From positions 1 through 46,906 of IMG/VR virus record IMGVR_UViG_3300048838_000698: DNA of 46,906 bases; one strand, written 5' to 3'. Source of the DNA: a virus. Below the pieces are notes generated by a model. That model was not told where the DNA came from and ran no database searches. It saw nothing but the letters and a program-made list of their open reading frames with translations. Below are positions 6,822 to 32,297 of the stretch, piece by piece. The position numbers and the translations under genes were made by a program. The number at the start of each line of letters is the position of its first letter. Positions within the stretch are counted from its first letter, which is position 1.

Positions 6822-7599
6822 GACAACTATCGAATGGGCATCGCACACCTGGAACCCGTACACCTGGGCGTGCCGCAAGGTCTCGCCGGGCTGCGCCAAC
6901 TGCTACGCCGAATTTCTGGCCGAACGCCGCAACGGGCCAGGCGCGTTCAACCGCGCACCGGAATGGCGTGGGGCGCGGGCGATGCAGGAGATCAGGCGGA
7001 TGCCGCGCGGCGCGGTTGTGTTCGTCAACAGCATGAGCGACACGTATCACGAACAGGCGCGCGTGTCGTGGATACACAGCATCCACAACATCGCGGCGTA
7101 TCTGCGCCCGGACGTGACGTTTCTGCTGCTGACCAAGCGCCCGGAGCGCGCACTGGCGCTGGCGCGCACGCTGACCTACCCGCCGAACCTGTGGGTAGGC
7201 ACGAGTGTCGAGAACGCCGACTACCTGTGGCGGTTGGACTACCTGCTGCGCATCCCGGCGGCGGGGCATTTCGTGAGCGCTGAACCGCTGCTGGGGCCGC
7301 TGCCGGGCCTGCGCCAATATGTGCAGTCTGGACTGAAGTGGGTGATTGTCGGCGCGGAGAGCGGCGCGAAACGGCGGCCTTTCGACAAAGCCTGGGCGCG
7401 CGACATCCGCGATATGTGCGGGCGCGCGGGCGTGGCGTATATGTTCAAGCAGGGCGGCGCCTACGCCAGCGGGCAGGACAGGCTGCTCGACGGGCGCACC
7501 TGGGATGAGACGCCGTTCACACCGCGCGCGCAAGCGGTGCCGGCGGTTCCAATGCCAATGCTGCCGGTGCAAATGGGCTTGTGGGGTGAACAGCGATGA
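6814..7599 (+). CDS. Phage Gp37/Gp68 family protein (DUF5131)
   Basis: A 261-residue protein with the family signature near the N-terminus: TIEWASHTWNPYTWAC, then VSPGCANCYAE, giving Cys20, Cys27 and Cys30. Later motifs FVNSMSDTYHE, LLLTKRPER, LWVGTSVEN, FVSAEPLLG and WVIVGAESG are characteristic. The family resembles radical-SAM-type barrels with a metal-binding cysteine cluster, but no reaction is established. Start ATG 6814 overlaps the previous stop. It is in the rightward operon between the ParB-like gene and three small genes. Confidence 0.88.
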   Translation: MGKTTIEWASHTWNPYTWACRKVSPGCANCYAEFLAERRNGPGAFNRAPEWRGARAMQEIRRMPRGAVVFVNSMSDTYHEQARVSWIHSIHNIAAYLRPDVTFLLLTKRPERALALARTLTYPPNLWVGTSVENADYLWRLDYLLRIPAAGHFVSAEPLLGPLPGLRQYVQSGLKWVIVGAESGAKRRPFDKAWARDIRDMCGRAGVAYMFKQGGAYASGQDRLLDGRTWDETPFTPRAQAVPAVPMPMLPVQMGLWGEQR

Positions 7600-8060
7600 G
7601 CGCGCCGACGCTGTTTTACACCGTGCACGCCATCAACCCGTATCGGTACCTGCTGGACCATCTGCGGATGCTGCCTGGCGGCGGTGACGTAGGCGGTGTG
7701 GTGCGGCACGTGTTCGCGTGGTCTGAGGCGGCGGAGAGTTTACGGAAGGCTGAGGAAACGCTGGCGACGGTAGGGCGTGACTATGGGCGTGAGCTGAGCC
7801 GGGAACGCAAGGCGCTGGCGGCGCTGCGCCCCACTGACCCGGCACGGCGCGACCATGAGCGCGCGCTGGCCCACCTGGAGCGCGGCGGGTACGAGACGCT
7901 GACGTGGCGGTTGCAGGTGGCGGCACGTGAAGTGGCCCGTCAGCAGGCACGCCTGGACGAGATTGACGCCATGCTGCGCCAGGTGGCGGCAGTCGACGAG
8001 TCGGTACGGCTGGCGCTGAGCGAGGGAGCGCGCGAGCATGTCGAGACGACGACCGGTTGA
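7596..8060 (+). CDS. Hypothetical coiled-coil protein (154 aa)
   Basis: The start overlaps the DUF5131 stop by four bases (ATGA), implying coupling. Residues about 45-140 are predominantly charged helix (SLRKAEETLATVGRDYG, RRDHERALAHLERG, ARQQARLDEIDAMLRQV), a probable coiled coil. The first 40 residues are a short globular head. No family is recognised. Confidence 0.7.
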   Translation: MSAPTLFYTVHAINPYRYLLDHLRMLPGGGDVGGVVRHVFAWSEAAESLRKAEETLATVGRDYGRELSRERKALAALRPTDPARRDHERALAHLERGGYETLTWRLQVAAREVARQQARLDEIDAMLRQVAAVDESVRLALSEGAREHVETTTG

Positions 8061-8313
8061 CCCGCGCCAACTGGCGCTGCCGCTGTACTGGGCACCTGAC
8101 CCGACGCCCTACGAGCTGTACGTGGCACACGTGGTGCAGGACTTGTGCCGGCGCAGCGGCGGCCCGGTGCCGGCAACAGTGGTGGCGGGGCACCTGGGGA
8201 AAGCAGACCGGACGGCGCGCCTGTATCTGCGCCGGTTGGAGCGGGCACGAGTGGCGATGCGCCCGAAGGGGCCGCGCAGTGGGTGGATGGTCACGAGAGG
8301 AATGGTGCAGTGA
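8038..8313 (+). CDS. Small winged-helix-like protein (91 aa)
   Basis: ATG 8038 has GAGGGAG upstream and overlaps the preceding gene by 23 bases. After LALPLYWAP, the segment ELYVAHVVQDLCRR, VPATVVAGHLGKADRTARL, YLRRLERARV and the wing-like SGWMVTRG resembles a small winged helix that could bind DNA. A relative of MarR-like modules is possible but unproven. Confidence 0.65.
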   Translation: MSRRRPVDPRQLALPLYWAPDPTPYELYVAHVVQDLCRRSGGPVPATVVAGHLGKADRTARLYLRRLERARVAMRPKGPRSGWMVTRGMVQ

Positions 8314-8762
8314 ATAACGACAACGGCGACATGGGGGGACTACCCGTGTTGAGGCTCACTACCAAACAATGGACTGATGCGGTTAGGTTTCTTGCGTGTG
8401 ATGCGACGATGCGTGCGATGGTTGGAAAAGTCAGTCAGGAATTAAAAACCATCATTGACGCACAGGCGGATGTAACTAGGCAGAAGGGAAATGACGCAAT
8501 GAGCGATGCGAAAAAGACTGGAATCTATGTGATTCAGGAGAGCGGGTGGGACCCATATTTGATTGAAATATTGGAAGGGCCAGCAGACCAGGATGTTGGC
8601 GATCTGTTCGACCTTTTCCTCGACGAGACTGGATATACCGGTAAGCCACTGGGATTGGGAGATTATTTGGGTGAACGGAGGGATGCGTTTATAGAGTGGC
8701 TGGGGCAGAGGGCGGGGTGGCGTGTTGTTGATTACGATAGCATATACATCGGCGGCAAATAG
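8310..8762 (+). CDS. Hypothetical protein, last gene of the rightward operon (150 aa)
   Basis: GTG 8310 overlaps the previous stop in a GTGA junction, with AGAGG about nine bases upstream. The N-terminal half is helical (QWTDAVRFLACDATMRAMVG), the C-terminal half acidic and aromatic (DVGDLFDLFLDETGY, IEWLGQRAGWRVVDYDS). Base use is visibly more AT-rich than the genes before it. A strong terminator follows immediately. No family recognised. A shorter product from ATG 8331 (GLPVLRL) cannot be excluded. Confidence 0.65.
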   Translation: MNNDNGDMGGLPVLRLTTKQWTDAVRFLACDATMRAMVGKVSQELKTIIDAQADVTRQKGNDAMSDAKKTGIYVIQESGWDPYLIEILEGPADQDVGDLFDLFLDETGYTGKPLGLGDYLGERRDAFIEWLGQRAGWRVVDYDSIYIGGK

Positions 8763-10384: not shown

Positions 10385-10393
10385 TGGTATAAT
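10385..10393 (+). promoter_or_regulatory. Extended -10 promoter
   Basis: TGGTATAAT is a perfect -10 hexamer with the upstream TG of an extended -10 promoter, in a short AT-rich stretch. The -35 is poor. Transcription would start near 10400 and lead into the gene-free region up to 10763. Confidence 0.6.
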
Positions 10394-10399
10394 AGTTAT

Positions 10400-10750
10400 T
10401 GAAACAGGTGTGCGTTTTTCGCAGGGGCGGCAGTGTTTGACCGGATGCCGGGCGGCGCACACCTGAGCAGCACCGGTGCAATACAGCGAGCGCGGCGATG
10501 ATCGGCGCGGGTGCAGGCACCTTCGGACAGGCCTGCGGGCGTGCAAGGCGGCGGGCACGCGGCAACACCTCGATCTGCCTATCGACAAAGGCAGGGGCAC
10601 GCGAAGCCCGGCTGGATAAGGCGCGGCGAAACCTGGGAGGGGGACGCGGCGCAGGAAGAAGCCTACTCGCACACCTGGCCGCTACAACCTGGGAGGGCGC
10701 GCCGGTTCAAGGACGGGCGCGGGCGGTTCGATCCCGCCAGCGGCACATGC
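10400..10750 (+). ncRNA. Candidate structured RNA in a gene-free 420-base stretch
   Basis: Downstream of the promoter there is no ORF with a convincing start; two overlapping frames (from 10498 and 10511) stay open but look like GC-rich chance frames. Several helices can form: CAGGTGTGCG (10405-10414) with CGCACACCTG (10456-10465), GCGTGC (10539-10544) with GCACGC (10555-10560), CTGCC (10575-10579) with GGCAG (10590-10594), and a tRNA-like end in which GGCCGCT (10677-10683) faces AGCGGC (10739-10744) and GGCGG/CCGCC closes a TTCGATC loop (10722-10738). Class unknown. GC-rich DNA forms helices easily, so this is tentative. Confidence 0.35.
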
Positions 10751-30469: not shown

Positions 30470-30816
30470 TCGTGGCGCTGCTGCTGCTGGCGCTGCAACC
30501 CGCGCAGACGACGGTTGCCGACTGCCTCACGCGCAGCGGCTACAGCGCCAGCGTACCCGTCACGCCCGTCACGACGCTGGCGGGTACGGACGCCTGGGCC
30601 GACGGCTACGGCGAACTGGTGCTGACCGACGGCGCGCTGATCGGCCTGACGTATCTTGACGACGACGCAGGCGCGCGGCGGATGCTGAGCTTCCATGTGT
30701 ACGCGGGCGACGTGTTCGTGTTCGTGTACAAACACCCGGACGATCCGGGGCGCAGGCTGCCCGGTGAAGCGGCGGGTACGTGGCATGGGGATTGTTTGCT
30801 TCGGATTGGCGCATAA
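30457..30816 (+). CDS. Exported small protein with signal peptide (119 aa)
   Basis: ATG 30457 with GAGG upstream. A signal peptide is evident (MFAVIVALLLLALQPAQT, cleavage near residue 18-22), followed by a Cys-containing beta domain (DCLTRSGYSASV, LVLTDGALIGLTYLDDDAG, VFVFVYKHPDDPG) with a second cysteine near the end (GDCLLRIG), perhaps a disulphide. Function unknown; exported phage proteins often alter the host envelope. Confidence 0.65.
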   Translation: MFAVIVALLLLALQPAQTTVADCLTRSGYSASVPVTPVTTLAGTDAWADGYGELVLTDGALIGLTYLDDDAGARRMLSFHVYAGDVFVFVYKHPDDPGRRLPGEAAGTWHGDCLLRIGA

Positions 30817-30830
30817 ATGCGTTTAGCACG

Positions 30831-30848
30831 TGATAAGAACTCTTATCA
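30831..30848. promoter_or_regulatory. Palindrome upstream of the moron promoter
   Basis: TGATAAG (30831-30837) and CTTATCA (30842-30848) flank AACT. It lies 90 bases before the moron -35, in AT-rich DNA unlike the flanking genes. Operator-like, role unproven. Confidence 0.45.
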
Positions 30849-30870
30849 TGCGTTATTTGCATTTGTGTAA

Positions 30871-30886
30871 TATCCCAATTGGGATA
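30871..30886. promoter_or_regulatory. Perfect 16-bp palindrome
   Basis: TATCCCAATTGGGATA is an uninterrupted palindrome 53 bases before the moron -35. With the palindrome at 30831 it forms a likely regulatory region. Confidence 0.5.
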
Positions 30887-30938
30887 AAACAAAAGGGATA
30901 TAGGGCAGTTAGAATAGTCATACCGCGTGCATTTTAAC

Positions 30939-30967
30939 TTGCTGCGATTGTACGCAGGTGCTATAAT
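30939..30967 (+). promoter_or_regulatory. Moron promoter
   Basis: TTGCTG (30939-30944) and TATAAT (30962-30967) are exactly 17 bases apart, with TG one base before the -10 (extended -10). This is one of the best sigma-70-type promoters in the window. It would start transcription near 30974, ahead of the nuclease gene. Confidence 0.75.
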
Positions 30968-30984
30968 AGGGGATAGAAAAGGTT

Positions 30985-31039
30985 GTTCCGGCGCTGCGAC
31001 TAACAGCCCGGAACGTGAGCTATCACTCTGGAGGTGATA
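30985..31039 (+). promoter_or_regulatory. Structured 5' leader of the moron nuclease
   Basis: GTTCCGG (30985-30991) pairs with CCGGAAC (31008-31014). A second hairpin pairs TATCAC (31021-31026) with GTGATA (31034-31039) and so hides part of an unusually complete Shine-Dalgarno sequence, GGAGGTGAT (31030-31038). Translation of the following GTG start may therefore be controlled by RNA folding. Confidence 0.5.
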
Positions 31040-31042
31040 ACT

Positions 31043-31741
31043 GTGAACAATCATACCCCCCTGCCCCACTTTAAGCAATGCAAAAATGGAGATAAGTGTC
31101 TCCACCCGGACGGCCCGTATTTACCTATCACTGAGTTCTACCGGCATCCTGCTACGCGGGACGGCTATCTGAATCAATGTAAAGCGTGCCAACGGGAACG
31201 AATGAAACAGTACAGCCCTCAGGATGCTAAACCGCATATCATTGAAACACTTGCGGTTCAGCGCTTGAACGCAGCAAGCATTGTCGCTGCAACCGGGCGT
31301 GAATATCGCGACTATAATTATACAGATATAGTCGCATGGGGTTGTATCCCGATAGAAGTAAAAAGCTCTGAAATGGTCGACGGTCAGTGTGTGTTCAAGA
31401 TTGCATCAGCTACAACAAAGGGTATACGCGGTGATTTCGTGATACTCGTGCCATTGAAAGATGGCCAGCCCGAAAGCTGGCATGTGTTCCCGAAGTGGCA
31501 TCCGGTATTCATGAAGCATGGCCGGTGCAAGTCTGGACTTTCGTATGACCGTTACACACAGCAGAGGCAGAACGCATTACCCGGCACAATCCTAAGCCCG
31601 GCGCTCATGGCACAGTATCAGGACGCATGGCACTTGATTAATGCCCGACGGGATGAGATCGGTGAACAACTTCGCTTGTACGGTGAAATCAGGGAAAGCG
31701 CCTTGTTTCATGAGCCTTCTCAACAGCCCAACTTACTCTAG
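31043..31741 (+). CDS. Moron: zinc-finger plus PD-(D/E)XK-type nuclease-like protein
   Basis: A 232-residue protein starting at GTG 31043. Cys13, Cys19, Cys46 and Cys49 in an ITEFYRHPATRDGYLNQCKA context form the zinc finger seen in HNH-type and phage nuclease families. Downstream, YNYTDIVAWGCIPIEVKSSE gives Asp95, Glu105 and Lys107, the pattern of a PD-(D/E)XK nuclease active site. It has its own promoter, structured leader and terminator, and is more AT-rich than the neighbouring tail and lysis genes: a moron acquired separately. Homing, defence or DNA-processing roles are possible. The nuclease fold is inferred from motifs only. Confidence 0.65.
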   Translation: MNNHTPLPHFKQCKNGDKCLHPDGPYLPITEFYRHPATRDGYLNQCKACQRERMKQYSPQDAKPHIIETLAVQRLNAASIVAATGREYRDYNYTDIVAWGCIPIEVKSSEMVDGQCVFKIASATTKGIRGDFVILVPLKDGQPESWHVFPKWHPVFMKHGRCKSGLSYDRYTQQRQNALPGTILSPALMAQYQDAWHLINARRDEIGEQLRLYGEIRESALFHEPSQQPNLL

Positions 31742-31889
31742 CACAAGCGCCCTTCGGGGCGCTTTCCATACGCCCAAGCTGCTGCCCCTATTCGACCGCT
31801 ACGGGCACGCGCGCATTGTCCTGGCACAGCGGACGGGCGACGGCTGGCGCGTAATCGACGAACGGCCCCGACTGGCGCGGGCGGCATAA
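31710..31889 (+). CDS. Small protein overlapping the moron terminator (59 aa)
   Basis: ATG 31710 lies inside the end of the moron gene, with only a distant AGGGAAAG as ribosome-binding site. The frame is read through the terminator stem. The segment KLLPLFDRYGHARIVLAQRT and GWRVIDERPRLARAA looks like a real protein end. A likely history is that the moron was inserted upstream and replaced the original start. Confidence 0.4.
   Translation: MSLLNSPTYSSTSALRGAFHTPKLLPLFDRYGHARIVLAQRTGDGWRVIDERPRLARAA
31745..31764 (+). terminator. Moron terminator
   Basis: AAGCGCCC (31745-31752) pairs with GGGCGCTT (31757-31764) over the stable tetraloop TTCG, followed by TCC. It closes the moron transcription unit. 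Confidence 0.75.
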
Positions 31890-32185: not shown

Positions 32186-32199
32186 GAGGAAAGCTAAAA

Positions 32200-32228
32200 C
32201 GCGCCGGAACGGAGCACGCCCCGGCGCG
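32200..32228 (+). other. Leader hairpin
   Basis: CGCGCCGG (32200-32207) pairs with CCGGCGCG (32221-32228) over a 13-base loop. It lies between the promoter-like element and the 12-codon ORF, with no T-tract. Possibly a stabilising or attenuating leader structure. Confidence 0.45.
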
Positions 32229-32258
32229 CCGGGCACACCCGATGGAGGCGGGCTACCC

Positions 32259-32297
32259 ATGACCATCATAACACGAGAGCGGCGCGAATGCCGATAG
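32259..32297 (+). CDS. Leader micro-ORF, 12 residues
   Basis: ATG 32259 has GGAGG ten bases upstream. The peptide MTIITRERRECR ends at TAG 32297, overlapping the start of the next gene by ten bases. It may couple translation of that gene, which lacks a good ribosome-binding site of its own. Confidence 0.35.
   Translation: MTIITRERRECR

Follow-up and report, generated by a model that had tools for sequence, protein, structure and literature searches.

A candidate free-standing homing-type endonuclease gene between phage tail and lysis genes

Why would a tailed phage carry, between its tail and lysis genes, a single nuclease gene equipped with its own promoter? We address this question in one IMG/VR virus record of 46.9 kb, the whole of which we call the window. 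The initial annotation read the locus as a moron, a self-contained unit with a role in defence or lysogenic conversion. Our answer is different. The unit is probably a free-standing homing-type endonuclease gene, most likely a selfish element that moves from phage to phage and not a defence of the host.

An AT-richer insert with its own signals

The unit occupies an AT-richer stretch of about 0.95 kb. On one side lies a 127-aa gene, whose stop ends at 30815/30816, and on the other a 73-aa gene (31898). The stop codon of the upstream gene is adjoined by an orphan ATG (30816). After this ATG come two palindromes, an extended -10, two leader hairpins, a Shine-Dalgarno (SD) sequence, a gene with a GTG start and a TTCG-loop hairpin (Table 1). 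The nuclease gene has a GC content of 0.50 and a GC3 of 0.53, compared to a GC3 of 0.69-0.84 in the surrounding genes and two core phage genes, those for the tape measure and the terminase. Its GC3 marks the gene as foreign. The AT-richer composition described in the initial annotation is thus borne out, and the position between tail and lysis genes agrees with the neighbouring genes. The claim that the unit is self-contained is supported as well: its promoter and leader layout is seen again in the closest relative, whose phage also has it before two nuclease genes of unrelated kinds.

Both palindromes noted earlier are perfect and lie within 56 nt. This exceeds chance density, since the whole 46.9 kb holds only about 10 distinct palindromic sites of equal quality. 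The first is a possible operator or end of the upstream transcript, the second a possible operator.

The insert may have split a small gene. The frame behind the TTCG-loop hairpin, with a GC3 of 0.78, would then be the 3' part of that gene. A search for homologues of the possible split gene found none and so gave no base-exact empty site. Homologue search and gene-level comparison, the two approaches used, found no near-identical phage with an empty site. With no Rfam match to a group I intron at the gathering threshold in the window, and with its own promoter and stop as bounds, the gene lies outside any intron or intein. The record itself starts in a tandem repeat (14-364; read as LASVRLASYR on the + strand), which makes a fragment boundary possible at this end of it.

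Table 1. Features of the window, relatives of the nuclease and nuclease genes of G001, the phage of the closest relative.
Feature	Sequence	Position	Strand	Remarks
Palindrome TGATAAGA-AC-TCTTATCA	window	30831..30848	.	perfect; from the sequence
Palindrome TATCCCAATTGGGATA	window	30871..30886	.	perfect, 16 bp; from the sequence
Promoter	window	30939..30967	+	weak -35 TTGCTG, 17-nt spacer, extended -10 TGC-TATAAT (30959-30967); from the sequence
Leader hairpin 1, GTTCCGG...CCGGAAC	window	30985..31014	+	predicted fold; equivalent large hairpin in the L005 leader
Leader hairpin 2, TATCACT-CTGGA-GGTGATA	window	31021..31039	+	predicted fold; spans the SD GGAGG (31030-31034)
Gene, finger and PD-(D/E)XK-like protein, 232 aa	window	31043..31741	+	GTG start, TAG stop; ahead of the lysis cassette; relatives P0002, P0003, P0004
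Terminator-like TTCG-loop hairpin	window	31745..31764	+	from the sequence; short U-tract
Putative 3' remnant of a split small gene	window	31767..31889	+	no own start codon; TAA end, then SD
Relative P0002	L005			38% identical to the window protein; keeps E68, D95, E105, K107; adjoins a glycosyltransferase gene, an AP2 gene and further head/tail genes
Relative P0004	L120/L139	5962-6639 (L139)		33% identical; keeps E68, D95, E105, K107; fourth Cys missing, His nearby; in L139 between probable tail chaperone and tape measure
Relative P0003	L007/L008			27% identical; keeps D95 and the finger; E68, E105, K107 lost; flanked by a Mu-F-like head gene and a large downstream gene
AP2 genes	G001	1562, 20652		
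PD-(D/E)XK-like gene	G001	3145		
GIY-YIG genes	G001	7570, 22208		
HNH gene	G001	47601		

The promoter is confirmed. Its extended -10 is present, with a poor -35, and because of this -35 a consensus promoter scan passed over the site. The TTCG-loop terminator is less clear-cut than first described. It is present as an 8-bp cUUCGg stem-loop, but it is followed by the tail TCC, a poor U-tract, and a consensus terminator scan did not call it.

The leader is indeed structured. Its folding z-score is -2.97 for 30970-31060, and in a comparison of the 93 genes of the window and G001 it is -3.03, which places it at rank 5. The leader had also been thought to mask the SD, but such masking is weak here. 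In the predicted hairpin 2 three of the five SD bases are looped and two are paired, and the mean SD accessibility of the nuclease gene (0.61) lies above the median of the 93 genes (0.40); on this accessibility we rejected the masked reading. Control of the nuclease by the leader hairpin is possible, and T4 homing endonucleases give a precedent (PMC2988022), though with so little SD masking. We also considered the leader as a conserved RNA and rejected this: an exact scan with GCGACTAACAGCCCGG gave three chance matches, and there was no Rfam match at the gathering threshold.

Two other places in the window have related structures. At 32195-32290 a GC-rich hairpin is again present, together with a hairpin across the SD (ACCCGATGGAGGCGGGCT); both stand ahead of a 232-aa membrane coiled-coil gene (32288), whose start is overlapped by a 12-codon ORF that follows the ACCCGATGGAGGCGGGCT hairpin. 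At 10385-10500 a second TGGTATAATA promoter-like site, upstream of small ORFs preceding the terminase genes, has behind it a hairpin of very high stability (CAGGTGTGCG...CGCACACCTG).

A finger joined to a PD-(D/E)XK-like core

The program-made ORF begins at GTG 31034, a codon overlapping the SD. Counted from GTG 31043 the motifs are a Cys finger at residues 13-49, E68, D95 and E105-x-K107, and the residue numbers of the initial annotation (C13/C19/C46/C49, D95, E105-x-K107) are right. The finger region (residues about 27-86) matches the PHROG endonuclease VII/HNH families 1035, 2340, 2255 and 2633; profile libraries recognise this finger only and leave the rest of the protein unmatched. Fingers of the same type are fused to HNH nucleases in related phages. 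The 232-aa protein has no HNH match in Pfam and no His-Me/HNH catalytic motif. Judged by its residues, a PD-(D/E)XK-like core stands in place of the HNH domain behind an HNH-type finger. Searching phages and plasmids with the protein or its core by tblastn returned finger matches only, or nothing convincing.

Scanning IMG/VR with degenerate motifs turned up three relatives, all distinct and full-length. E68, D95, E105 and K107 are present in three of the four divergent family members. The D/E/K residues had been expected to persist in homologues; P0002 and P0004 keep all of them, while P0003 lacks E105 and K107. Because E68 is gone together with these two, the three residues appear to work together, and P0003 looks like a decayed copy of the kind that a homing life cycle would produce. 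No comparable protein was found in 50,697 phage records, plasmids and GTDB species genomes under the motifs tried; the GTDB scans used short motifs, which divergent members may escape. A second genome scan, with alignment A2, found no member, and a scan for the motif HVF..D.P found already known members only.

Is the core a PD-(D/E)XK domain? We consider this likely. D...(D/E)-x-K and a helix Glu stand in the expected order in the window protein, P0002 and P0004. In a profile alignment of these three intact members to archaeal Hjc, with sequences drawn from PDB matches, the register of helix E, D and E-x-K is exact. Of 200 column shuffles 1 reaches the score of this alignment; once the decayed member is included, 2 of 60 do. 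The predicted order of helix, strand hairpin, strand and strand fits a PD-(D/E)XK core, in an AF2 model of low confidence built with four sequences (pLDDT 48; a model without an alignment had 34).

Library searches give a different picture. Sequence searches of Pfam, NCBIfam, PHROGs and PDB found no PD-(D/E)XK family match to the core, PF11645 (PDDEXK_5) had no match anywhere in the window, and a PDB sequence search with alignment A3 returned nothing relevant. Foldseek, queried with the low-confidence model, found no match in PDB or viral fold libraries. The initial annotation suggested a profile search for both motifs; the finger was matched and no named PD-(D/E)XK family was found. Hence its description of a zinc finger joined to a PD-(D/E)XK-like domain is supported by the residues kept in two of three relatives and by the Hjc register, but not by profile-library, PDB-sequence and fold searches.

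These negative searches would also suit a protein that is not a nuclease at all, but a DNA-binding regulator or a decayed protein whose E/D/E-x-K resemblance is coincidental. The L007/L008 frame, which stays open without E68, E105 and K107, points the same way. However, all four catalytic-type residues occur together in three divergent members, and the fourth member has lost E68, E105 and K107 jointly. The predicted secondary-structure order is compatible with a PD-(D/E)XK core, if at low confidence, and the Hjc alignment is better than 199 of 200 shuffles. Coincidence is improbable in our judgement, and as far as the sequence can tell the protein is likely a nuclease.

Scattered positions and recurring leaders

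Each of the four family members has a place of its own within structural or lysis gene clusters, so that their position between the conserved genes of related phages is sporadic and variable. The closest relative lies in G001 (IMGVR_UViG_3300011443_000017, 53 kb; the L005 contig, with loci L081, L141 and L142), which carries glycosidase-like and holin-like genes of the window type. The lysis cassette of G001 has no nuclease at the junction that is occupied in the window; its copy lies 10 kb away.

One interval is occupied in two phages. Between probable tail chaperone and tape measure there is a GIY-YIG gene in G001 (7570-8340) and a PD-(D/E)XK relative in L139, as if this were a shared landing site.

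Variable positions bear on the question whether the protein serves the phage's own DNA metabolism, as a recombination or repair enzyme of the Holliday-junction resolvase type with an Hjc-like or endonuclease VII role. Its finger resembles that of proteins annotated as endonuclease VII, and its catalytic residues can be aligned with those of archaeal Hjc (PDB 1gef), in which helix E, D and E-x-K follow in the same order. The window protein differs from Hjc in its added finger and C-terminal region and in its scatter among phages, and the hhalign probability is just 2-7%. Moreover, the gene is missing from the terminase relatives searched, the members already found excepted, and the closest terminase relative, G003, has none. 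Its location differs in each phage and is away from replication genes, and one member is inactive by sequence. We give a resolvase role little credence.

G001 carries six homing-type nuclease genes: two GIY-YIG, two AP2 (one of them scoring under the Pfam cut-off), one HNH, whose finger is of the same type as that of the window protein, and one PD-(D/E)XK. The six span four or five catalytic kinds, and those with a listed GC content are mostly AT-richer than their neighbours.

TGnTATAATA and a hairpin leader precede the PD-(D/E)XK gene, one GIY-YIG gene and the HNH gene of G001. The window and L005 leaders are near-identical from the -10 through GAAAAG (TGnTATAATA, then GGGGA(T)AGAAAAG) and have a small SD-crossing hairpin in common. 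Ranked by fold z-score, the four nuclease leaders take places 1, 5, 9 and 21 among the 93 genes of the window and G001 (P 0.0005). This promoter and leader style is enriched before nucleases but not exclusive to them, because some non-nuclease genes, for example G001 13794, also have structured leaders. Within the family the leader hairpin is conserved in part: L005 has equivalent hairpins, but a promoter and leader of the window type are absent at L007 and L120, two of the four members.

How does the moron fare? A true moron would express the nuclease alone, in the prophage or early in infection, to attack competing phages or foreign DNA. The unit's own promoter, terminator-like hairpin and AT-rich island agree with this, and a ParA-like gene in the phage could fit a plasmid-like prophage. 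However, PADLOC gave no match for the four family members (E up to 1), and no cognate methylase or immunity gene adjoins the nuclease gene. The relatives lie in structural gene clusters at different sites, one of them without active-site residues, and GIY-YIG and HNH homing-type genes bear the same promoter and leader style. A moron function in defence or lysogenic conversion is unlikely, with a probability that we put quite low. Scatter between structural genes points instead to a homing-type gene.

We favour a homing-type mobile gene. The four-Cys N-terminal finger would aid DNA binding, and the PD-(D/E)XK core, with E68, D95 and E105-x-K107, would cleave a cognate site in phages without the gene. 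The break would then be repaired from the carrier genome, by which the recipient would acquire the gene together with its flanks. The gene's own extended -10 promoter and structured leader would allow expression at any landing place. In this sequence of events we infer the PD-(D/E)XK fold, the cutting of DNA, its target and the homing.

A broader idea is that of a class of mobile cassettes, in which unrelated cores (PD-(D/E)XK, GIY-YIG and HNH) stand behind a common extended -10 and a structured, SD-overlapping leader, with the finger also shared by PD-(D/E)XK and HNH. The exchanged part would then be the finger or leader, not the nuclease. We offer this as a speculation that is more likely wrong than right by some distance.

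Comparison with known homing genes

If the homing explanation is right, the PD-(D/E)XK homing enzymes gain a branch that is rare, free-standing and equipped with a finger, and an HNH/endonuclease VII-type finger is seen joined to another catalytic core. It would also be a small case of a mobile nuclease gene that brings its own expression control. A self-contained insert, then, need not be a defence or conversion moron.

The homing endonuclease I-Ssp6803I is borne by an intron in a cyanobacterium. It belongs to the PD-(D/E)XK type (Zhao et al. 2007, as described in PMC3943268 and PMC10448857), which counts among the six homing families now recognised (PMC6083498, PMC3943268). The window gene, probably mobile as well, likewise has compact PD-(D/E)XK-type catalytic residues, but it is free-standing in a phage, has a promoter of its own and codes for a Cys finger at the N terminus. 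The PDB sequence search, the sole sequence comparison with I-Ssp6803I, did not return it. PD-(D/E)XK homing enzymes are thus already known; new would be the joining of such a core to an HNH-type finger.

Free-standing homing genes cleave the allele without the gene and are then copied in by repair (PMC6083498). T4 has twelve intergenic ones, some with their own promoters and several under hairpins at the ribosome-binding site (PMC2988022). As in the window, I-TevI, segB and mobE of T4 have a promoter directly upstream and an SD-spanning hairpin (PMC2988022). The late transcript of I-TevI lacks the hairpin, whereas the window promoter stands ahead of the hairpin and gives a transcript that includes it. 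Predicted SD masking by the window hairpin is weak, unlike in T4-type regulation. The phage HNH/endonuclease VII-type homing genes, such as the T4 mob genes and F-CphI, are alike in finger type, intergenic site and variable location. Compared to these, the window protein appears to have exchanged the HNH/His-Me domain for a PD-(D/E)XK-like core.
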